From Melioribacteraceae bacterium (GTDB lineage: Bacteria; Bacteroidota; Ignavibacteria; Ignavibacteriales; Melioribacteraceae): 64,000 nt of DNA. The notes below the pieces were generated by a model. The model worked only from the letters and a program-made list of their open reading frames with translations, made no database searches and was not told the DNA's origin. The stretch is from the NCBI GenBank assembly GCA_030584085.1, contig CP129490.1, positions 2,699,511 to 2,763,510 on the forward strand, written 5' to 3'. Positions 9,406-60,770 of the stretch are shown piece by piece. Numbering within the stretch: position 1 is the stretch's first letter; the number at the start of each line of letters is the position of its first letter. The translations under genes and the position numbers were made by a program.

Positions 9406-9714
9406 TAATCTCCTCCTTATGAATCTGCTGTTAATGGATTTATTAAAAAAAGGTATAACATACTTTGGGAAACTGCATTTACTAAATATTTCTTGCTTAG
9501 GTGAGTCACAAAATTCCGATTGTTGGAGTCAAATATCTAATTGCAAAATAATGCTAATCGAAATTAATTTCAAAGAAAAGTTAATTCCGGATACAATATC
9601 CAGCATAAAATATAATTGGGAGATAAAAAATGATTCGATAGCATTTCTAACATGAAAAACAACTTGCTCGCAAGAAATTTCTTCCTTAAGTTACGAGCAG
9701 TTCTTAATTAATTC

Positions 9715-9860
9715 TTACGGTGTTAGGGAAACCGGTTAAATTCCGGTGCTGCCCCGCAACTGTAAAGGACTTATAAAAGTCTTCAGCAAAATGCCACTGT
9801 CCCGAAAAATAGGGATGGGAAGGCGCTGAATGATGTCCTAAGCCAGGAGACCTGCCGTAA
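9715..9860 (+). ncRNA. Cobalamin riboswitch aptamer
   Basis: The outer P1 helix is TTACGG (9715-9720) with CCGTAA (9855-9860). Inside are the conserved core blocks GGGAAACCGG, the GCCCCGCAACTG segment (9751-9762) and the B12 box AGCCAGGAGACCTGCC (9841-9856). All blocks are in canonical order. The element lies about 110 nt upstream of a BtuB-like gene. Known riboswitches of this class lower expression of transport genes when cobalamin is bound. From 9406 to about 9714 I see only the divergent sdhC leader and no gene. Confidence 0.96.
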
Positions 9861-9880
9861 GCATTCAATCACTAATTAAC

Positions 9881-41617: not shown

Positions 41618-41642
41618 AGGCGGAGCCATGTCATCTCCGCCT
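41618..41642 (-). terminator. Terminator of the kinase/sigma54 operon
   Basis: AGGCGGAG/CTCCGCCT form an 8-bp stem with a 9-nt loop. On the minus strand TTTTATTATT follows. It lies directly after the receiver-stub gene. Confidence 0.82.
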
Positions 41643-41675: not shown

Positions 41676-41876
41676 TCAGACTTTATTTTCTTCATCGATT
41701 CTTCCAAGTTCATTGGGTGAACCAATAATCAAACGTATCGGGAGCTGTTTGCATAAATTTAATGCTTCTTGTTTGTCTGTGACAGTCATTATGCTAAAGC
41801 CCTCTCTTGTTAACAGCTCCCTTAATTTTCTTAAAATTACTTTATCGGAATCAATAATTAGAATATGATCATTCAT
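41676..41876 (-). CDS. Truncated, degenerate response-regulator receiver domain
   Basis: A 66-aa product starting MNDHILIIDSDKVILRKL, matching the first strand, acidic pocket and helix 1 of a receiver domain. It runs through helix 2 and strand 3 (IRLIIGSPNELG). The position where strand 3 should end in the phospho-acceptor Asp has Gly/Ser, and the protein stops there, lacking the conserved Thr and Lys. It therefore cannot be phosphorylated conventionally. It lies about 130 nt downstream of the sigma54 activator, before a good terminator. It could be an adaptor or a relic. The ATG at 41876 is chosen over a TTG two codons upstream. Confidence 0.65.
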   Translation of the reverse strand: MNDHILIIDSDKVILRKLRELLTREGFSIMTVTDKQEALNLCKQLPIRLIIGSPNELGRIDEENKV

Positions 41877-42007
41877 CGGCAATTATTTTAAGACATATGG
41901 TACAATTAAAGTGCCATCATAAAGCGGAATGAAAACATAATTAATAGCTTAACTTAGTGGTAAAGGGGCGACAGGTGATTGATTAAACTGTTGCATAACT
42001 GCAACAA

Positions 42008-43741
42008 CTAAATATTTATATCGAGTTGAGTCAGCAGTTTATGAAGATGGCTTCTGTTGATTCCCAATATTTTGGCAGCTTCCGATTTAGATTCGGTCTT
42101 ACGAAGAACTCTCATAATAAATCTTTTACGAAATTCGCTTTCGGCTTCGGATAAAGTTCGGTATTCAGTTCTTTTTGAATCAATTTCACTATCATCAACT
42201 ATTTCTGCCGGTAAATTTTTAGATGAAATTTCCTTATCGGGACACAAAATAACCGCTCGTTGAATGACATTTTCCAGTTCACGTATATTTCCCGGCCAGT
42301 TGTATGATTCAAGAATCTCAATTGCTTCGTCTGCTATTGAATGTGCTTTGTTCTCTTTAGCATACTTATTCAAAAAATATTGAACTAGGTCTTCAACATC
42401 TTCCTTTCTTTCACGCAGAGGTGGGATATAAATCTCAATTACTTTTAACCTGTAGTAAAGATCTTCGCGAAATCTTTTTTCTTCAATCATTTTAGAGATA
42501 TCTTGATTTGTTGCTGCAATAAAGCGAACATCAATTTTTTTCGAATTAACCGAGCCTAATCTTTCAATCTCTCTTGTTTGAATAACTCTTAAAAGTTTTG
42601 CTTGAAGATTGACACTCATTTCTCCGATTTCATCAAGAAAAACAGTACCACCGTCAGCAGATTCTAATCTTCCCGGTTTACTCTTATTAGCACCGGTAAA
42701 TGCACCGCTTTCAAAACCGAACAATTCAGACTCTAAAAGATCGGATGGAATTGCGCCGCAATTAACTGCAACAAATGGTTTATCTCTACGTTTACTGTTG
42801 TTATGAATTGCTTGTGCTAACAAATCTTTACCTGTGCCATTTTCGCCAAGCAACAAAATGGAAACATCAGTATCGCTTACTTTTGATGCAAGATTCAGGA
42901 CGTCATATAATTTTCTGCTGGAACCAATAATATTATCAGATTTAAATTCTTCGCGCAATTCCTTGAAACTGGTAGATGGAACGTTTGCTAATTTCTCTTC
43001 GAGTGTATCAATCTCTTTAGATACTTCAATTCCCTTCACAATTTGGTTCGCGAAAGATAATAGAAATGTAAGATCAGATTCTTTGAATGGCATTTCCGCG
43101 TTTCTTCTATCAAGATAGACTGCCCCCATAACTTTAGAGTTGGAAACTAGAGGAACACATAATGCTGCTTTAAGTCCGAGCGAAACAATACTATGTTTGC
43201 TGCCAAAACTTGAATTTACTTGAAGTTCACTCAATTGAGATGGTCTTAAATTTTTAATTGTGTCATTAATAATTGTTGTACTAAGTTCTTTTGCTTCCGG
43301 TTCGTTTTCGGGTTCCATGTTTTTTGCAACTATTGTATCGATGCTTAATTTTTCATCTACCAAAACTATAAATCCTTCATCGGCATTTAATTCTGTTACA
43401 ACCGTATCGATTGCTTTTTCCATTAAACGTTTCATCTCCGTTTCAGATTGGAATAAAATTCCGGATGCATATAATCTTTCTAACTTTTTCTTTTCCGAAG
43501 ATAATTTCTCTAACTTGTTTTCAAGTTTATCGTATTGATAAAATAAGCCGTCAAGTTCCTTCGTAAGAACACGATTGAATTCTAATATTGACTTGAAAGT
43601 TTTATCGATCTGTTTTAACAACTCGGGATCATTCGCAGCCTTTTTTATATCTGAGGATAGATTTAAAAAACGAGTTGAAGATTGACTAACAAATTCGGAT
43701 AAGAGTTTATTTACATTATGTCTTTGTTCGGAAATTTCCAT
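42008..43741 (-). CDS. Sigma54-dependent transcriptional activator with GAF sensor domain
   Basis: A 577-aa regulator. A coiled coil (about 1-95, [19 protein letters not shown]) leads to a GAF domain (about 95-250, [20 protein letters not shown]). The AAA+ core (about 272-500) has Walker A GENGTGKD, intact GAFTGA (sigma54 contact), Walker B FLDEIGE and arginine fingers near REDLYYRL. A Fis-type helix-turn-helix ends the protein ([19 protein letters not shown]). There is no receiver domain, so input comes through GAF/coiled coil or kinase contact. The ATG at 43741 lies 2 nt after the stop of the receptor-kinase gene, so the two are almost certainly co-translated. Target promoters were not identified. 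Confidence 0.95.
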
Positions 43742-43743
43742 AA

Positions 43744-46700
43744 TTAAATTTTGAGTAGATCTTCCATAATTTGTGAAGCGGAATTATATCTTTTATCTAT
43801 GTCTTTCTCAATACATTTCATAACAATATTATCGATTGTCTTTTCAACTGAATTATTTAACTCAGATGGATAAGGTGGTATCGTGTTAAAGATTGAATGG
43901 ATCAACGCCATTTCATTTTCGCCTGTGAAAGGGAGTTTCTTCGTGAGCATTTGGTAGAGAATAACACCAAAGGAAAAAATATCAGTTCTCTGATCAATTT
44001 GAATATTTGTTATTTGTTCAGGCGCAACATAACCGAGTGTTCCCACAACAGTACCGAGCGATGTCATTGTTGAAACAAGAGGAGATTTCGATAAACCAAA
44101 ATCCATTATTCTAATACTATTGTTTTCATCAAACATTATGTTTTGAGACTTCAAATCACGATGCAGTACATTGTTTTCATGAATGATAATTAAGCCTTCG
44201 CAAATCTCAATCGCAATTTTTTTGAAAGTTCCTTTATCTAACGGAAAGTTATTTGCAACAAATTCTTCAAGCGTCCCGCCGGATAAATATTCCATTGCAA
44301 TATAACTGTGTTCTTCGGTTTCACCGAATTCAAATACTTTTACAATGTTCTTATGATCAATTGATGAGAGCAGTCGTCCTTCACTGATTAATCTTCGCTT
44401 GTTCTCCTCATCTTTTAATAAAGTTGGGTTAATAATTTTAATCGCGACGAGCTTATTGTTTTTCGAATCGAGTGCTTTGAAAACTTTCCCCATTCCCCCG
44501 ACGCCAAGTATTTCCATCAACTTGAAATGTGAGATATATTTACTTTCACGTTCTTCAATATAACGTTTGGAATAATAAGCAAATGCAAACATAAAAAGTG
44601 ACGGTAAAACAATCGGCAGAATCCATTCAAAATAAAAATTAGTTTTAAGTGTAAAGTGGATCAACAGTAAAAAGAAAACAATTATTGTCAGGATAAAATA
44701 CCATTGCTTAATAATTCTAGTTGACTTCCAATGTTTTGTTTGCTGATAAAGCAGCATTGAAACAAAGATCAACAGAGATAATTTGGCTGCTGATAATTTC
44801 CAATCTACCAAGTTGATACTTCTCTGAATTGAATCTCTTATCCTCGTTATATAGTGATTAACCAATGATGATTCGGTTACAGTATAAGTTTTATTCGGCT
44901 CAATATTATTTATTTCTATTTTTATCCCGGACGGATATTCCACCTCAATTAAATAATTCAATGTATCTATTAAACCAAAATGAAGTTCGCTTATATTTTG
45001 CTGCGATAAAGGAGATTCTCCGAAACCAAAATATTTAGTATTACGATATGCTTCTTCGCTATTCTTATTTTTTCCAACAAGAGAAACTTTTGTACCGATC
45101 GCCGTCCTGTTACTTTTGTCGGCATTGAACTTTATTTTGATTGAATTTCCTTCGGATAAATTATTTCGATATAACTTTGCAGTTTCACCGGCTGGGGCTG
45201 AGTTTTTACTGATTCCTATAAATAAATCTAGATCACCGTCATTGTCTATATCACCGAATGAAGGATTACCGGTAAATGATAAACCGATTTGTTCGCTTAC
45301 TTCTGTAAATTTTAAACCGGGAGAGTTAAGATATAGTTTTGAACTAATATATATATCTATATAACCATCATTATTTACATCAGCAGCGTTAAGTATTCCG
45401 CCGGTTGGTTCAGGGTGTTGAATTGCTTCAATAAATCCGGCTTCGGTTGAATAATTAGTAAAATTAGCATCACCGTCATTTAACAACAGCATAGGAGTTT
45501 TACCGCCGTTAAACAAAAATATATCTTGTGTGCCATCATTATTAAAGTCTGCTGAAATTGCAGACATCGAAATTAAATTTTGATTTGACCTAAATACTTC
45601 CGATTCTTTCTCTTCGAATGTAAAATTACCTTTATTCAGATATAATTCGAGAAACTTATTATTCTCGGCAAATCGATAAACAATAAGAATATCGGCAAGC
45701 ATATCATTATTAAAATCATTTATGACAACACCGTAAGCTTGTCTATTTAATTTTTTGTCGATGCCGGTTTGATTGTAAATGTTTGTGAAATTTCCATAAC
45801 CGTCATTTTCAAATAACATATCTTCGCGACTAAAATTAGATATATAAATATCCAGATTACCATCATTGTTGAAGTCAATAAATTTAGCTGAAGTCAGGGC
45901 TAACGTGGCATCAATTATTTCAAGTTCAAGTTTGCTTCTTTCAGCATCTTCGGCAAAATTAAATTCTCCTTTACCAAATGCCAGGTTGTAGTTTAAGTCA
46001 TCTAAAATTTCCAGAAGATCAAACTTATTATCTTTATCCAAATCACCAAGAACTAATGATTGGTTTAAGCTTGCATTGGTAATGCCAATTTGTTCACGTG
46101 AGATTTCCGAGAAAACATTATTTCCGAGGTTTTTATAAACGAGATTTGGTCCACCATCGGAAATTATTGCAAGATCATTAAAGCCATCACTATTACCATC
46201 AAAGAAAGTAGCGGCTCTTCCCTCTTTTCTTATTGATGACGCAGTTGTAATATCCGTAAACGAAAAGCCGAGATTCTGTGAAGTTGTATAAATTCCCGCT
46301 TGTCCGATAACCCAAATTTTATAATCATCGTTTGCGTCTTTAATAAAATCTACATCTTCAAAAATGTCTTCGAATGATTTTATACTTTCAATTTCTTTCC
46401 ACTCTAGCCCATCCCATTCTAATAAAGTTGAACGCGTTCCTGTAATCCATGCTTTTTTTAATCCATCTGAAATTACTGAGGTGAATGAAACTCGGTAATT
46501 ATTTTCAAAATACTGCCATTTACCATTTTCAAATTTTAGAATTGTTCCTCTATCACCGACTATCCAACCGTTGCTAGCGTCAATCATTGAAATTTTACGA
46601 AGATCAGTTTCAACCGGGGAATCAATTCTATTCCATTTTCCATTTTCAAATTTAATAATTACACCTTCGCGTCCGACCGCCCAGCCTAAATCTTTTGAAA

Positions 46701-47289
46701 CCATTTCTATATCGTTTAAGTCACCGAAGTAAATCGATGTTCTCTCAACATTTTTTAACGGACTTTCGAATTCACTCCAAACTTTTCCGTCGTAAAATAA
46801 AATATTTCCGAGTTGACCGATCATCCATGCTGTTCCGTCTTCAAGAATTTCGATTCCATTCCACATCGAGTAATCGGTTGCATCCCACATAACTTTCGGA
46901 AGAATTATTTCATTAAATTTTGAGCCGTCGTATTCAAAAAACCGGGGATGCCAAAAGTTATGATGTGTTTCGTGATGTATAAACCAAATCTTTTCTTCGT
47001 TATACGCAATCTGTGGATTATCGGAATAATCAAATTTAAAGACGGACTCCCATTTGCCATGTTTTAATTGGTACAAATTTCCTTTGATATCATATCCCGC
47101 TCCGCGTGAAATTGCAATTCCTTCATTAATCGATTGCATAATAATTCTTGAACCATGATCAACATTAGCTTGTTTATACCATATTGCATCGCTTTGTAAC
47201 TTTTGATTAAAATCTTTTCGATCTGAACAAGAAGTTAATAGAAGTATAGTAATTACAAATGCCAGTATTTTATTCAGTGTTGGTACCAT
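43744..47289 (-). CDS. Transmembrane Ser/Thr protein kinase with FG-GAP/ASPIC extracytoplasmic sensor
   Basis: An 1181-aa lipoprotein-receptor kinase. The N-terminus has a lipobox LLTSC (Cys21). Residues about 30-335 contain BNR/Ycf48-like repeats (GWAVGREGVIIKFENGKW). FG-GAP/VCBS loops follow to about 690 (DLDKDNKFDLL, DFNNDGNLDIY, DVNNDGYIDIY, DIDNDGDLDLF), then an ASPIC/UnbV domain near 700-810 (NRTAIGTKVSLVG, ELHFGL, VEYPSG). Three membrane helices (about 833-850, 863-882, 887-906) place the kinase (922-1181) in the cytoplasm. All Hanks motifs are intact: GVGGMGKVF, VAIK (Lys951), HRDLKSQN (Asp1045), DFG (1063), APE. The ATG at 47289 is chosen over a TTG five codons upstream. The sigma54 activator gene follows after 2 nt. 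Confidence 0.93.
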   Translation of the reverse strand: MVPTLNKILAFVITILLLTSCSDRKDFNQKLQSDAIWYKQANVDHGSRIIMQSINEGIAISRGAGYDIKGNLYQLKHGKWESVFKFDYSDNPQIAYNEEKIWFIHHETHHNFWHPRFFEYDGSKFNEIILPKVMWDATDYSMWNGIEILEDGTAWMIGQLGNILFYDGKVWSEFESPLKNVERTSIYFGDLNDIEMVSKDLGWAVGREGVIIKFENGKWNRIDSPVETDLRKISMIDASNGWIVGDRGTILKFENGKWQYFENNYRVSFTSVISDGLKKAWITGTRSTLLEWDGLEWKEIESIKSFEDIFEDVDFIKDANDDYKIWVIGQAGIYTTSQNLGFSFTDITTASSIRKEGRAATFFDGNSDGFNDLAIISDGGPNLVYKNLGNNVFSEISREQIGITNASLNQSLVLGDLDKDNKFDLLEILDDLNYNLAFGKGEFNFAEDAERSKLELEIIDATLALTSAKFIDFNNDGNLDIYISNFSREDMLFENDGYGNFTNIYNQTGIDKKLNRQAYGVVINDFNNDMLADILIVYRFAENNKFLELYLNKGNFTFEEKESEVFRSNQNLISMSAISADFNNDGTQDIFLFNGGKTPMLLLNDGDANFTNYSTEAGFIEAIQHPEPTGGILNAADVNNDGYIDIYISSKLYLNSPGLKFTEVSEQIGLSFTGNPSFGDIDNDGDLDLFIGISKNSAPAGETAKLYRNNLSEGNSIKIKFNADKSNRTAIGTKVSLVGKNKNSEEAYRNTKYFGFGESPLSQQNISELHFGLIDTLNYLIEVEYPSGIKIEINNIEPNKTYTVTESSLVNHYITRIRDSIQRSINLVDWKLSAAKLSLLIFVSMLLYQQTKHWKSTRIIKQWYFILTIIVFFLLLIHFTLKTNFYFEWILPIVLPSLFMFAFAYYSKRYIEERESKYISHFKLMEILGVGGMGKVFKALDSKNNKLVAIKIINPTLLKDEENKRRLISEGRLLSSIDHKNIVKVFEFGETEEHSYIAMEYLSGGTLEEFVANNFPLDKGTFKKIAIEICEGLIIIHENNVLHRDLKSQNIMFDENNSIRIMDFGLSKSPLVSTMTSLGTVVGTLGYVAPEQITNIQIDQRTDIFSFGVILYQMLTKKLPFTGENEMALIHSIFNTIPPYPSELNNSVEKTIDNIVMKCIEKDIDKRYNSASQIMEDLLKI

Positions 47290-47362
47290 GAAATAGGATA
47301 ACAAGTTAATAACTCTTTTTTGTAAATTGTCGGACTTAATTTATAAAAATCAGCGAATAATT

Positions 47363-57044: not shown

Positions 57045-57668
57045 TTAAATTTCGCCGCGGAGTTTTTTAGTTATTACTTCAGCCTTGGAGTTGACATTTA
57101 ATTTGCGGTAAACACTTCTAATGTGCTGTCGAACAGTATCAATCGAAATATGATATTTATCGGCAATCATTTTGTAGCTTAATCCTTCCACTAGGCCAAC
57201 TACAATATCATATTCTCTTTCAGTAAGTTGTTTTTCTAGTTTTTGCTTTGGCTGGAAGTATTCAATTACTTTCCTTGCTATGCGCGGCGACATTGGCGAT
57301 CCGCCATCTGCCAAGATTGTTAAGTACTTTTTTATTTCTTCGAGCGGAGAATTTTTTAATAGATAACCGGAGGCTCCGCCTTGCAAACATTTAAATATTT
57401 TTTCAGGGTCATCGTGCACGGTAAGCATAACGATTTCGGTTTCGGGTAATTTTTCTTTAATCGCCCTTAGAGATTCGTCACCTTGTTTACCGGGTAATCC
57501 TATATCTGATAAAATTATTTCGGGTTTGTTTTCATCGGATAGTTCCGTGAAAAAATCTTCCATAGAATTCACACTAATAGTGCATTTGAATTCCTTTTGA
57601 TGACTTAAATATCTATATAGTAATTCTCTTAATTCAATATCATCTTCTATAATTGCAATGCTTTTCAT
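57045..57668 (-). CDS. NarL/FixJ-family response regulator
   Basis: A 207-aa regulator. The receiver domain has the acidic pair in AIIEDDIEL, phospho-acceptor Asp in EIILSDIGLPG, Thr in VMLTVHDD and Lys in SGYLLKNSP. A LuxR-type HTH follows (LTEREYDIVVGLVEGLSYK, DTVRQHIRSVYRKLNV). The ATG at 57668 fits the family, but the only good Shine-Dalgarno (AGGAGA) is 4 nt before an in-frame TTG at 57683, which would add MILVN; either is possible. It lies 48-63 nt downstream of the histidine kinase, its likely partner. Confidence 0.93.
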   Translation of the reverse strand: MKSIAIIEDDIELRELLYRYLSHQKEFKCTISVNSMEDFFTELSDENKPEIILSDIGLPGKQGDESLRAIKEKLPETEIVMLTVHDDPEKIFKCLQGGASGYLLKNSPLEEIKKYLTILADGGSPMSPRIARKVIEYFQPKQKLEKQLTEREYDIVVGLVEGLSYKMIADKYHISIDTVRQHIRSVYRKLNVNSKAEVITKKLRGEI

Positions 57669-57731
57669 ATTGACCAAAATCAACTTTTCTCCTAAAAATT
57701 ACAATCGCATGAAAATGCGATGCAGTCTATT

Positions 57732-60700
57732 TTATGAAATTGGAGGTGCTTTAACAATTACGATGAATCCATTTTCATTCTTAAATTCACAAATAGCTTT
57801 TATTTTTTTTGCACGCATTTCAATGTTTCGAAGACCTTGCCCTGTATGGTGTTCTTTTTGTTCATATCTTTTTCCATTATCGGCTATAATCATGGTTAGA
57901 AACTTATCCGTATTGGTTATTGATATATTAACTTCGGTTGCATCGGAGTGTTTCATAATATTATGTACAGATTCTTTTAAGATTAAGTACAGATTTTGCC
58001 GGGTTTCTAGATTTAGTTTTTCATCCGAATCTAAACCTGATACAGAGAAATTTACTTTTATGTTTTTCTCAGTCAAAACCGAAAATGCAATGTCTTTCAT
58101 CTTGTATATTAAATTATTCAGACCATCATTTCGAGAATCAATTGCCCACACAATATCCTGCATAGTTGAAACCGCTTCACGGGCTTGTTCTGCAATGCGT
58201 TTAAGATTTTTTGATTCTTTCTCTCCGTTAATCTGCATTTCAAGCATTTGTGCACGCATCGAAACTTTAGTTAATGTTGAACCAACCTCATCATGTAAAT
58301 CGCTTGCTATTTTTACGCGAAGACGTTCTAACTCTAAAATCCTATTAATCCTATACTTGTAAATTGAGAAAAGACCTAATGCTATTAAACTTCCAACAAC
58401 TAAATTGAACCACCATGTAAGCCAAAACGGTGGGGAGATTGTTAAGAAAATTGAGGCTTCATTATTGCTGAAGTTTCCCGAACGGTCAACAACTTTTACT
58501 TTAAAATTATATTCTCCGGGATCAAGATTAGTGTATGTTGCAAATCGTTTATCCGGGGTTGTAATAATCCAGTTGTCGTCAAAGTTTTCCAATTTATAAG
58601 CGTATTTAAGGGAACGCTGCATATCAAAGTTTAATGCTGCAAATTCAAATTCAAAAACATTATCCAGGTAATTTAAGCTCAGTTTATCTGCAACAATTAT
58701 ATTTTTTTCTAGCTTTGAATCGTTTCCAATGGGAACAGGTTTATTTCCTATTGTAAAACCGGTTGTAACAATTTTATAATCAATATTTCTGTCGGAAAAT
58801 TTTGCTGGATCAAAACTAATAAACCCGTTTATGCTTCCGAAAATTATCTCGCCTGCAATAGTTTTATAAGCTGCATTCTGTACAAATTCTTTATAAGCCA
58901 AGCCGTCCTGTGTTGAAAAGTTTGTAAAGATTTCTTTTACGGGATTGAATCGTGAAATACCGTTGTTTGTGCTTATCCAAAGTTCCCCGGAATTGTCTTC
59001 TTCAATTGCATAAACTGTATTATTGGGCAAACCTTCATTTGTGGTATAAAAAGTAAAGGTTTCCGTTTCATAATTAAACTTGTTTAATCCGCCGCCGTAT
59101 GTTCCCAACCATAAATTGTTTTTGGAATCCTCTTTTATTGTCGTGACATAATTATGACTTAATCCGTTTTCGTTATTGTTGGAATAGTTAATAAATCTTC
59201 CTCTCTTTGTATCTATTTTATCTATTCCTTTCGAATCAGTTGCAATCCATAAATTTCCGCGGCTGTTGTTATAAATACATGTTATACCCTTTGCACTTAT
59301 TTGATAACCGAGCTCGTCATTATTGTTTGTATTTGCAAAGTCATCAGTTTCTTTATTATACTTAAATAATCCCACACCATGTGTTCCCGCCCATATGTTT
59401 TTTTCTTTATCTTGGTATAAATAACTGATGCCTCTTGAATTCAGTTTGGAGTTTTGAGTATTGTAGGCTGTAGTTGTTTTAGTTTTCTTATCATATTTAA
59501 ATAACCCGTTTAATACAGTACCGTACCATATATTTCCCTCGTTATCTTCCATAAGGCAGTAAACATATATCTTTTTAGAGCGATCGATTTGATGAAAGGC
59601 TTTTATTATATTTTTATTAGAATCAAGCCGGAATAAACCGCTGCCGAAAGTGCCTGCCCAAAAGTATCCTTCTTTATCCTCCAGTATTGCCATGCCCGGT
59701 GCAGTGACACCAATATGAGAGTCATTTAGAAAGTTGTAAAATCTAGATTGTGAAAGATCGATTTTATATGCGCCGTCGCTTATTGAACCTACCCAGAGTA
59801 TATTTTGATCATTAGAGAAATAGAGGGTTCTTAAAATAGATTTGGCGAAAATGTTTACATTATCAATTTCGAAAGGTAAAAACTCGTCTTTTGCAGAATC
59901 ATATTTTAGCAAATTACCTGAAGCCGCCGCCCAAATAGTTTTTCTTATTGTATCTGCGTAAACATAATGAACTGTGCCCGGTTTTAACTTCTCATCAACT
60001 TTTTCAAAATAGGAATAAGTTTTTACAACACCGAATTTAGGATTTAATTTTTTTATTTCGTTTGGAGTTGAAATCCATGCAGAACCATCAGAATCAATTG
60101 TTGCGCTGAATATTTGTGTTTTTTCAAAGTAATTATAAATATCCGGGAATTTGTTTTCTACATTTGAAAATTTAAACAAACCTTCATTGCTTGTTCCAAC
60201 CCAAATATTTCCGTTGTGATCGCTACAAATATTAGTAACAAAATTTGTTTTTAGTCCGTTGCTGCTGTTAATATAGTTTTCAACTTTTTCTGTTTCCAAA
60301 TTAAGTTTTACTATTCCGCCTTCGCGTGTGCCTATCCATAAATATTTTCCTTTGGAATAAAGAGTATAAACCAAATCCGTATTTTTGCTCACACCGGCGG
60401 AATCAAGATCGAAGAAAATAAATTTATCTTTTTCACGGTTGTATTTATATAAACCGCCGCCTTGAGTACCAACCCAAAGGTTTTTATAACCGTCTTCACA
60501 AATTGATGTAATAAGGTTGTTTTGTATTCCGTTTGTGTCATTGGGGTTGTAACTGTAGACCTTACAGCTATATCCGTCAAACCTGTTTAATCCGTCGTCT
60601 GTGCAGAACCACATAAATCCCTGATAATCCTGTACAATACTTTTAACAGATAACTGGGATAAACCCTGCGCGGTGGCTACTTGTTCATAATGAAGATCGT

Positions 60701-60770
60701 TGCTTTGAGCAAAACAATCGGCAAATGCAAAAAACAATATAAATGGAATTATTTTACTTATCGATTTCAT
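57732..60770 (-). CDS. Reg_prop (two-component regulator propeller) sensor histidine kinase
   Basis: A 1012-aa sensor. A signal peptide is followed by about 14 Reg_prop repeats forming two propellers in the periplasm (GFMWFCTDDGLNRFDGY, NLWVGTQGGGLYKY, NIWAGTHGVGLFKYN, ELWISTNNGISRFN), a Y_Y_Y domain (YTNLDPGEYNFKVKVVDRSG), one membrane helix (about 785-803), HisKA_3 with His826 in SDLHDEVGSTLTKVS and a HATPase domain (ESVHNIMKHSDA, DNGKRY, GQGLRNIEMRA). Unlike Bacteroides hybrid sensors it has no fused receiver/AraC; the regulator is the next gene. Such sensors often detect polymer breakdown products; the ligand here is unknown. Confidence 0.95.
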   Translation of the reverse strand: MKSISKIIPFILFFAFADCFAQSNDLHYEQVATAQGLSQLSVKSIVQDYQGFMWFCTDDGLNRFDGYSCKVYSYNPNDTNGIQNNLITSICEDGYKNLWVGTQGGGLYKYNREKDKFIFFDLDSAGVSKNTDLVYTLYSKGKYLWIGTREGGIVKLNLETEKVENYINSSNGLKTNFVTNICSDHNGNIWVGTSNEGLFKFSNVENKFPDIYNYFEKTQIFSATIDSDGSAWISTPNEIKKLNPKFGVVKTYSYFEKVDEKLKPGTVHYVYADTIRKTIWAAASGNLLKYDSAKDEFLPFEIDNVNIFAKSILRTLYFSNDQNILWVGSISDGAYKIDLSQSRFYNFLNDSHIGVTAPGMAILEDKEGYFWAGTFGSGLFRLDSNKNIIKAFHQIDRSKKIYVYCLMEDNEGNIWYGTVLNGLFKYDKKTKTTTAYNTQNSKLNSRGISYLYQDKEKNIWAGTHGVGLFKYNKETDDFANTNNNDELGYQISAKGITCIYNNSRGNLWIATDSKGIDKIDTKRGRFINYSNNNENGLSHNYVTTIKEDSKNNLWLGTYGGGLNKFNYETETFTFYTTNEGLPNNTVYAIEEDNSGELWISTNNGISRFNPVKEIFTNFSTQDGLAYKEFVQNAAYKTIAGEIIFGSINGFISFDPAKFSDRNIDYKIVTTGFTIGNKPVPIGNDSKLEKNIIVADKLSLNYLDNVFEFEFAALNFDMQRSLKYAYKLENFDDNWIITTPDKRFATYTNLDPGEYNFKVKVVDRSGNFSNNEASIFLTISPPFWLTWWFNLVVGSLIALGLFSIYKYRINRILELERLRVKIASDLHDEVGSTLTKVSMRAQMLEMQINGEKESKNLKRIAEQAREAVSTMQDIVWAIDSRNDGLNNLIYKMKDIAFSVLTEKNIKVNFSVSGLDSDEKLNLETRQNLYLILKESVHNIMKHSDATEVNISITNTDKFLTMIIADNGKRYEQKEHHTGQGLRNIEMRAKKIKAICEFKNENGFIVIVKAPPIS

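Follow-up and report, generated by a model that had tools for sequence, protein, structure and literature searches.

A CRTAC1-like receptor Ser/Thr kinase encoded beside a GAF-type sigma54 activator in Melioribacteraceae, with a predicted tandem enhancer and a half-receiver microprotein

Links between receptor Ser/Thr kinases and transcription have precedents in principle, and the classical inputs of sigma54 activators are histidine kinases or small ligands. In the PknT/EcfP system a Ser/Thr kinase gene lies beside the gene for an extracytoplasmic function (ECF) sigma factor under its control, and the FHA-domain sigma54 activators of Myxococcus xanthus presented by Jelsbak, Givskov and Kaiser in 2005 are reported to be probable subjects of Ser/Thr kinase regulation. 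The output of the hybrid two-component systems (HTCS) of Bacteroides includes an AraC DNA-binding domain, and the enhancer of NifA is a TGT...ACA-like palindrome. Here we describe a locus in a 64,000-nucleotide stretch of a Melioribacteraceae bacterium (GCA_030584085.1, contig CP129490.1, positions 2,699,511 to 2,763,510; henceforth the window), taken from a genome that forms a single contig of 3.74 Mb. At this locus the gene for a receptor Ser/Thr kinase with an FG-GAP/ASPIC ectodomain is followed by genes for a GAF-type sigma54 activator (enhancer-binding protein, EBP) and a half-receiver microprotein. These parts probably constitute a modular one-step receptor pathway, in which the receptor kinase would act on the EBP, the EBP on tandem dyads and a sigma54 promoter, and the promoter on the half-receiver and on surface proteins.

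All three genes lie on the minus strand. The kinase gene (43744..47289) is separated by 2 nt from the EBP gene (42008..43741), as a preliminary description of the locus had claimed and the coordinates of the open reading frames (ORFs) confirm, and the half-receiver gene (41676..41876) follows after a further 131 nt. The receptor resembles the HTCS (e.g. BT4663 and BT3049) in that its large outer sensor is built on propellers and closes with an Ig-like domain, and in that sister kinases of the window kinase carry Reg_prop/Y_Y_Y domains; the output differs, being a Hanks Ser/Thr kinase with a sigma54 activator rather than a histidine kinase with a receiver. As in PknT/EcfP, the kinase gene adjoins that of a transcription-initiation protein which the kinase would control; the partner here is an AAA+ sigma54 activator and no ECF sigma factor. 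In contrast to the Myxococcus activators, the EBP combines a GAF domain with an N-terminal region, gives no FHA match, usually has an adjacent cognate kinase, and comes with a defined predicted enhancer and a half-receiver. It shares its GAF-AAA+-helix-turn-helix (HTH) architecture with the NifA/NorR-type activators and has, like NifA, a TGT...ACA-like palindrome as its (here predicted) enhancer; from these activators it is distinguished by an extra N-terminal region of about 90 residues, the kinase partner and a different dyad spacing.

The kinase ORF (43744-47304, minus strand) encodes 1186 residues when counted from an upstream in-frame TTG at 47304, which is the numbering used here; the ATG at 47289, implied as the start in the preliminary description, is backed by the ortholog L036, whose alignment begins at residue 6. 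That description had placed BNR, FG-GAP and ASPIC modules, three membrane helices and a Hanks kinase in one chain, and the Pfam and hydropathy analyses bear this out, with the UnbV_ASPIC match (residues 735-808) scoring 21.4 bits, under the curated cut-off of 23.4. A lipobox, LTSC, with Cys26 is found at the N-terminus. The first module, at about residues 40-344 (46273..47187), is predicted to be a YCF48-like beta-propeller: it contains a PSII_BNR match (155-258) and is matched by YCF48 chains in both Foldseek and sequence profile searches, with the rows from VIA-align being mostly generic WD40 or other propellers that are informative for 'propeller' only. The second, at about residues 345-813 (44866..46272), shows five stretches matching FG-GAP_3 and seven Dx[DN]x[DN]xxxD loops. 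An AlphaFold2 model of the ectodomain (800 residues, built from 25 sequences, mean pLDDT 89.6) recovered murine CRTAC1 (cartilage acidic protein 1) as its top Foldseek match (E 2e-20), and VIA-align superimposed the CRTAC1 chain 9etn_A on model residues 319-787 with Z 34.2 and rmsd 2.8 over 436 aligned positions; a sequence profile alone also retrieves CRTAC1 (E 4e-20). By this model half of the ectodomain is predicted to adopt the CRTAC1/ASPIC fold, namely an FG-GAP propeller joined to an ASPIC-like domain, which here, unlike in CRTAC1, belongs to a membrane receptor kinase as its outer half and has a second propeller in front of it. The HTCS sensors BT4663 and BT3049 occupy Foldseek ranks 2-6, with poor whole-chain superposition (TMq 0.39-0.46).

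The ectodomain is followed by three membrane helices at about residues 835-912 (44569..44802), which hydropathy places at about 832-855, 861-890 and 890-913, the first being weak in this sequence (1.44). The kinase domain (43762..44523; Pkinase at residues 928-1181, E 5e-61) possesses K956, E975, the HRD motif at 1048-1050, the DFG motif at 1068-1070 and PE at 1095-1096 as invariant positions across 15 aligned sequences. With its catalytic Lys and Glu and the HRD, DFG and APE-type motifs, the chain classifies by sequence among the Hanks-type Ser/Thr kinases. Pfam found no HisKA/HATPase or receiver domain in it, leaving the protein kinase as its sole output domain.

A point absent from the preliminary description is that the same kinase module also bears other sensor domains. 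In G005 it is linked to a Reg_prop/Y_Y_Y ectodomain, and seven of the eight relatives scanned with Pfam likewise carry Reg_prop/Y_Y_Y, the eighth, L088, having FG-GAP; in L091, which is cut by a contig end, Reg_prop falls just under the cut-off. In the kinase tree L091 groups with the FG-GAP kinases (84/84) and L093 falls among them at a weakly supported fork, with L102, L103 and L105 forming a clade of their own and eight of the 24 inner branches being well supported. Conversely, in G037 (L054, 6292-10276) an FG-GAP/ASPIC ectodomain is joined to a histidine kinase of the HisKA_3 type, with a NarL-type regulator encoded alongside; this version passes the UnbV_ASPIC cut-off with 25.7 bits. Reg_prop on Ser/Thr kinases and FG-GAP on a histidine kinase together indicate that these sensors are common to both kinase types. 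The window itself also encodes, at 57045-60770, a histidine kinase of the Reg_prop/Y_Y_Y type, next to which lies a LuxR-type response regulator.

The EBP comprises an N-terminal region followed by GAF, Sigma54_activat (AAA+) and HTH_8 domains, and its GAFTGA loop is conserved in an alignment of 15 sequences. An AAA+ domain with this loop and a Fis-type HTH are the hallmarks of a bacterial EBP, and its sequence places the protein among them. No Response_reg match was found in the Pfam scan, which agrees with the receiverless activator of the preliminary description and sets it apart from the NtrC type, nor was any FHA match found by Pfam at E 0.001; the Pfam scan also identifies the partner of the kinase as Sigma54_activat instead of an ECF sigma factor. 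Its best NCBIfam scores, all under cut-off, are to PrdR, NifA and NorR. The genome encodes RpoN (one PF04552 match, 203 bits) and 17 EBPs scoring above 160 bits.

Both the fusion and the gene pair recur in many genomes, as the preliminary description required of its reading. Of the 79 family genomes, 16, counting the own one, encode the fusion kinase end to end, the others being 42-98% identical to it; three more family genomes have a version cut by contig ends. Kinase identity is 88% to a metagenome-assembled genome named Melioribacter roseus and 98% to the isolate SURF_28, and the fusion also occurs in records titled Ignavibacteriaceae, Calditrichota and others. Once duplicates were merged and L107 (broken frame, no EBP) was set aside, 33 fusion loci remained, of which 26 (the window plus 25 of the 32 others) have a same-strand EBP gene downstream. 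Seventeen family loci include the 3' end of the kinase gene, and in every one of them the EBP follows in the same orientation, directly in 14 and past a transporter block in G064, G065 and G067. By eye, the genes intervening in those three genomes (L040, L037 and L039, respectively) are ammonium-transporter-like and outer-membrane-like and divergent; the ammonium-transporter-like gene was considered as a target and dropped, there being no site tied to it. Given the orthologs, the synteny and the selection on the half-receiver described below, the arrangement is more than a chance observation.

The pairing also has a second, architecturally distinct version. Three Hanks kinases score over the cut-off in the genome, one of which, a PEGA-domain Ser/Thr kinase (L003, G000:C1:3399095-3400790), is encoded 1 nt after another GAF-EBP. 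Twenty relatives of this kinase were fetched (L200-L219), and in all 19 with an upstream side (L217 has none and was excluded) a sigma54 activator lies directly upstream, that of L213 being cut by a contig end. Such consistency marks the association of Ser/Thr kinases with GAF-EBPs as a habit of the lineage and no isolated accident. The third Hanks kinase (L002, G000:C1:1751488) has a YCF48/BNR propeller in its C-terminal half.

The gene at 41676..41876 encodes 66 residues and corresponds to the receiver stub noted after the EBP in the preliminary description. A partial receiver match upholds the assignment: it aligns to positions 1-47 only of the 111-position receiver model, with 27.8 bits, below the 30.2 cut-off. 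Its AlphaFold2 model (pLDDT 78, pTM 0.57) shows beta1-alpha1-beta2-alpha2-beta3 only, and the 50 fold matches listed are all receiver or response-regulator chains (best E 2e-3, none below 1e-3). Among these is CikA (2j48, E 0.03), a pseudo-receiver that likewise has a receiver fold without the phospho-acceptor Asp, in contrast to which the half-receiver ends after beta3 and is free-standing. The family numbers 24 distinct sequences, found in records that range from Melioribacteraceae to Calditrichota; the core measures 63-78 aa in 20 of these, and the start codon taken accounts for the greater length of the remaining four. The phospho-site is occupied by Glu in eight, Ser and Lys in five each, Asn in three, and Asp, Pro and Arg in one each; the window version has Ser53 and so lacks the phospho-acceptor Asp of a response regulator. 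The conserved core is strongest in alpha1.

Comparison with the congener L084 gave a nonsynonymous divergence (dN) of 0.033 and a synonymous divergence (dS) of 0.29, and all amino-acid changes fall within the last eight residues; the conserved half-receiver family is accordingly under purifying selection. Seven of the eight genomes searched contain a single half-receiver at 90-98 bits, with other receivers at or below 41 bits (in the own genome 95 bits versus 34 for the next receiver); in the eighth, G042, which has the kinase and the EBP, the profile search found none above 41 bits. The half-receiver lies within the fetched stretch in 18 of the 33 fusion loci (the window and 17 others). A regular-expression search of six loci for missed copies recovered none, and a later profile search located half-receivers away from the kinase in three genomes (G064, G067, G070), while that of G045 is on a different contig. 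In eight genomes a lipoprotein-like protein of about 255 aa is encoded behind the half-receiver (recognised by eye; no Pfam match in the one scanned), a gene that is absent from this position in the window. The preliminary description missed that the stub is the product of a conserved gene and, in turn, a predicted target of the circuit.

The output of the EBP through sigma54, also proposed in the preliminary description, is backed by a predicted enhancer-plus-promoter footprint in the gap behind its gene. Tandem dyads sit just 3' of the EBP gene, followed by a promoter-like element; in the window these are dyad 1, TGTTGCAGTTATGCAACA (41989..42006, minus strand; 12/12 to the consensus), a degenerate dyad 2 (41956..41973, minus strand; 9/12) 33 nt from it, and a predicted sigma54-type -24/-12 element TGGCAC-N5-TTGTA (41901..41916, minus strand). 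The dyad consensus TGTYGC-N6-GCRACA was scored out of 12 and the promoter element YGGYMY-N5-TTG, sought within 120 nt upstream, out of 9; both patterns were drawn from the same 23 half-receiver upstream regions on which they were scored, and because they are post hoc and these regions share descent, the shuffled controls overstate the case. Dyads of at least 10/12 were found in 19 of the 23 (shuffles: mean 0.46, maximum 3; kinase upstream regions: 0/19), the two best dyads lie 32-35 nt apart, i.e. about three DNA turns, in 19 of the 23 (shuffles: 0.76, maximum 3), and the promoter element occurs in 18 of the 23 (shuffles: 0.1; opposite strand: 0; kinase upstream regions: 1/19). The half-receiver genes found later in G064, G067, G070 and G045 all proved to have a dyad of at least 11/12 and a promoter element of 8/9 (4/4). 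Further, strict dyads occur in 14 of 19 genomes with the kinase versus 4 of 56 others (Fisher 5e-8).

The collected promoter sites have a fixed spacing and GG at -24 in 19 of 19; their -12 element is TTG, followed by C in only two of the 19. The textbook -24/-12 form TGGCACN5TTGCW has no match in the own genome (control: 2), and a scan requiring GC at -12 gave no clear signal. As a separate observation, of 30 TGGCAY-N5-TTG sites in the own genome (L150-L172), 14 lie 11-53 nt upstream of same-strand ORF starts, three are intergenic without such an ORF and 13 are inside coding sequence, a placement classified for the pattern sites only. Some of the genes they precede look flagellar by eye, and the upstream sites suggest that the sigma54 promoters of this lineage lack the usual -12 C.

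The dyads also point to candidate targets beyond the locus. In the own genome the strict pattern occurs at two places, ahead of the half-receiver and at C1:1432906 ahead of a BNR-like protein, and a slightly looser pattern adds C1:1509636. BNR repeats and a sorting tail of the type IX secretion system (T9SS) are present in the counterparts of this protein in G062 and G042. At the BNR gene a second dyad (score 9) lies 32-33 nt away in the own genome, G061 and G062, with one clear dyad in G042. In G064, G065, G067 and G068 a dyad and a promoter element of 8-9 of 9 precede a small outer-membrane barrel gene. The 23 strict sites in 75 genomes are distributed as eight at EBP/half-receiver genes, five at BNR genes (that of G060 assigned by identity of site only), four at barrel genes and six elsewhere. 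Such predicted surface-protein targets would fit the view of sigma54 as a controller of the bacterial exterior, as expressed in PMC3162934.

Downstream of the half-receiver gene the preliminary description placed a terminator. A hairpin is indeed present at about 41618..41642 on the minus strand; its folding energy (-13.9 kcal/mol, z -1.4) and its absence from the terminator scan output leave this as the weak point of that claim, and both the sigma70-type and the terminator scans performed no better than shuffle level. Elsewhere in the window a cobalamin riboswitch was detected at 9701-9873 (105 bits).

Taken together, these observations allow a tentative mechanism to be proposed. The lipid-anchored three-helix receptor kinase would expose two propellers, followed by an ASPIC domain of Ig-like type, outside the cell, and a cue from a surface or matrix, with calcium probably taking part in its binding, might change the state of the inner Hanks kinase. 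The kinase would then act on the GAF-EBP, most likely by a phosphorylation that lifts the repression of the AAA+ ring by the GAF/N-terminal region. We infer this step because of the conserved pairing, the lack of a receiver in the EBP and the second, independent kinase/GAF-EBP pair. The footprint argues strongly that the EBP would bind the two dyads, about 34 nt apart, and open a sigma54 promoter, and it points to the phospho-dead half-receiver together with a lipoprotein, a T9SS-exported BNR protein or an outer-membrane barrel as the likely targets. Our guess is that the half-receiver, as a product of its own circuit, might be a feedback modulator of the kinase or the EBP. The pathway free of a phospho-relay envisaged in the preliminary description is supported to this extent by the recurrence of the fusion and the pair, the receiverless EBP and the predicted footprint. 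A wider generalisation, namely that Ignavibacteria and Calditrichota possess a class of Ser/Thr receptor kinases with swappable propeller sensors that directly switch cognate GAF-EBPs acting via dedicated tandem enhancers, with the half-receiver, as conserved first target, in a feedback loop, is offered more tentatively, and we would not yet bet on it.

Several observations weigh against this pathway. The sequences and the footprint establish the parts, their conservation and the predicted enhancer-promoter-target layout, and it is the kinase-to-EBP transfer that is supplied by inference; moreover, no PP2C_2 phosphatase, the one PP2C family searched, was found in the genome. Seven of the 33 fusion loci have no nearby EBP (L076, L108, L090 and L144-L147). 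For the distant fusions among these (L144-L147, in G088, G093, G084 and G079) the best EBPs score 401-455 bits and lack the N-terminal region, so that the distant fusion exists there without this EBP partner. Related kinases without an FG-GAP match have an adjacent EBP in six (L091, L093, L102, L103, L105 and L106) of the 17 loci with at least 1.5 kb downstream and none in 11, of which only the genome of L094 was searched for a distant EBP. Kinase-domain and EBP distances correlate (r 0.87, 27 pairs), a point in favor of the pathway that stands without a control gene pair. With regard to the footprint, the 23 upstream regions are related by descent and five of them lack the promoter motif, the -12 TTG is followed mostly by T or A, unlike the textbook TTGCW with its zero matches, and the element following the dyads at the BNR gene, CGGCAY, scores only 7/9. 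Neither TGGCAYN5TTG in the genome (33 versus 31 in the control) nor the strict dyad over 75 genomes (23 versus 19) is in excess by number, both standing out by placement only. A relaxed dyad lies behind only two of 11 other EBP genes (L077 and L106, loci in which no half-receiver was seen) and behind two of five relocated EBPs (L220 and L223, and not L221, L222 or L224).

One alternative is that the EBP is a one-component regulator, whose GAF domain senses a small molecule, while the kinase phosphorylates other proteins, the two sharing a stimulus or an operon and no phosphate. In EBPs such as NorR and NifA the GAF domain is an established sensor of ligands or proteins (PMC2941729 states this role for NorR), and the sub-threshold PrdR, NifA and NorR scores, the missing FHA match, the genes intervening between kinase and EBP in three of 17 family loci and the 11 of 17 non-FG-GAP loci without an adjacent EBP would all suit such a regulator. 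However, the pair is maintained across kinases of 42-98% identity, and several loci retain it with a different sensor domain. Where the two genes are separated, a full-length EBP ortholog (626-880 bits) is present elsewhere in all five close-kinase genomes without an adjacent EBP (L076, L108, L090, L094 and L099, the last two being Reg_prop-kinase genomes), and the other kinase/GAF-EBP pair, which is built differently, keeps its two genes side by side in all 19 relatives tested. We therefore consider independent action of the two proteins unlikely, if worth bearing in mind. The dyads and the promoter might alternatively serve another regulator and merely adjoin the EBP gene, since their assignment is based on position and co-occurrence and 17 EBPs above 160 bits are available in the genome. 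This is improbable: in several families the dyads stand directly behind the EBP gene, half-receiver genes that have moved still carry them, and the strict sites track the genomes with the kinase (14/19 versus 4/56).

The half-receiver admits two further interpretations. Its truncation and the loss of the phospho-Asp in 23 of 24 sequences might suggest a decaying remnant of a response regulator, a notion that is very improbable and was rejected as a pseudogene reading on the dN of 0.033 against a dS of 0.29 with changes only in the last eight residues, the breadth of the family (24 distinct sequences, core length kept in 20, Melioribacteraceae to Calditrichota records) and its own conserved predicted enhancer and promoter. 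It might instead be the real switch, which is made by the circuit, docks on the kinase, the EBP or a histidine kinase, titrates its partner and so joins the Ser/Thr pathway to two-component signalling. Retention of a single distinct copy with a conserved core, alpha1 above all, the Glu at the phospho-site in eight of 24 and the enhancer kept by half-receiver genes that left the locus speak for such a role; yet the protein has no known partner, the fragment lacks beta4 to alpha5 and is only fairly modelled, and G042 retains the kinase and the EBP without it, so that docking of this kind appears possible but rather doubtful. For the pathway as a whole, the kinase-EBP circuit with the half-receiver as one of its products remains the reading that we favor.

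Among the papers listed from the literature searched, in which subscription papers are thinly covered, neither a kinase with an FG-GAP/ASPIC ectodomain nor such a kinase/EBP pair is described, as judged by titles and the openings of abstracts; the statement of the preliminary description that no such kinase was known agrees with this, which falls short of proof of novelty. The main text of a survey of bacterial kinase architectures (PMC1262709), as far as accessible, contains neither 'FG-GAP' nor 'sigma', and the accessible portions of PMC10482370, PMC12288465, PMC12316311 and PMC3162934 name no such kinase/EBP pair.

If the kinase drives the EBP, the system would constitute a route from the surface to the genes that bypasses histidine kinases, and a conserved receptor kinase paired with its own EBP, whose predicted enhancer, promoter and targets can be read from the sequence, opens to direct test what these bacterial receptor kinases control. 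The locus places a domain predicted to resemble animal CRTAC1 on a bacterial receptor kinase, and the related loci indicate that sensor domains are common to histidine and Ser/Thr kinases. Further, the half-receivers form a conserved family of microproteins of a kind that automatic annotation would probably skip and, should the proposed circuit hold true, they would represent a new kind of regulatory microprotein feeding back on the kinase or the activator.

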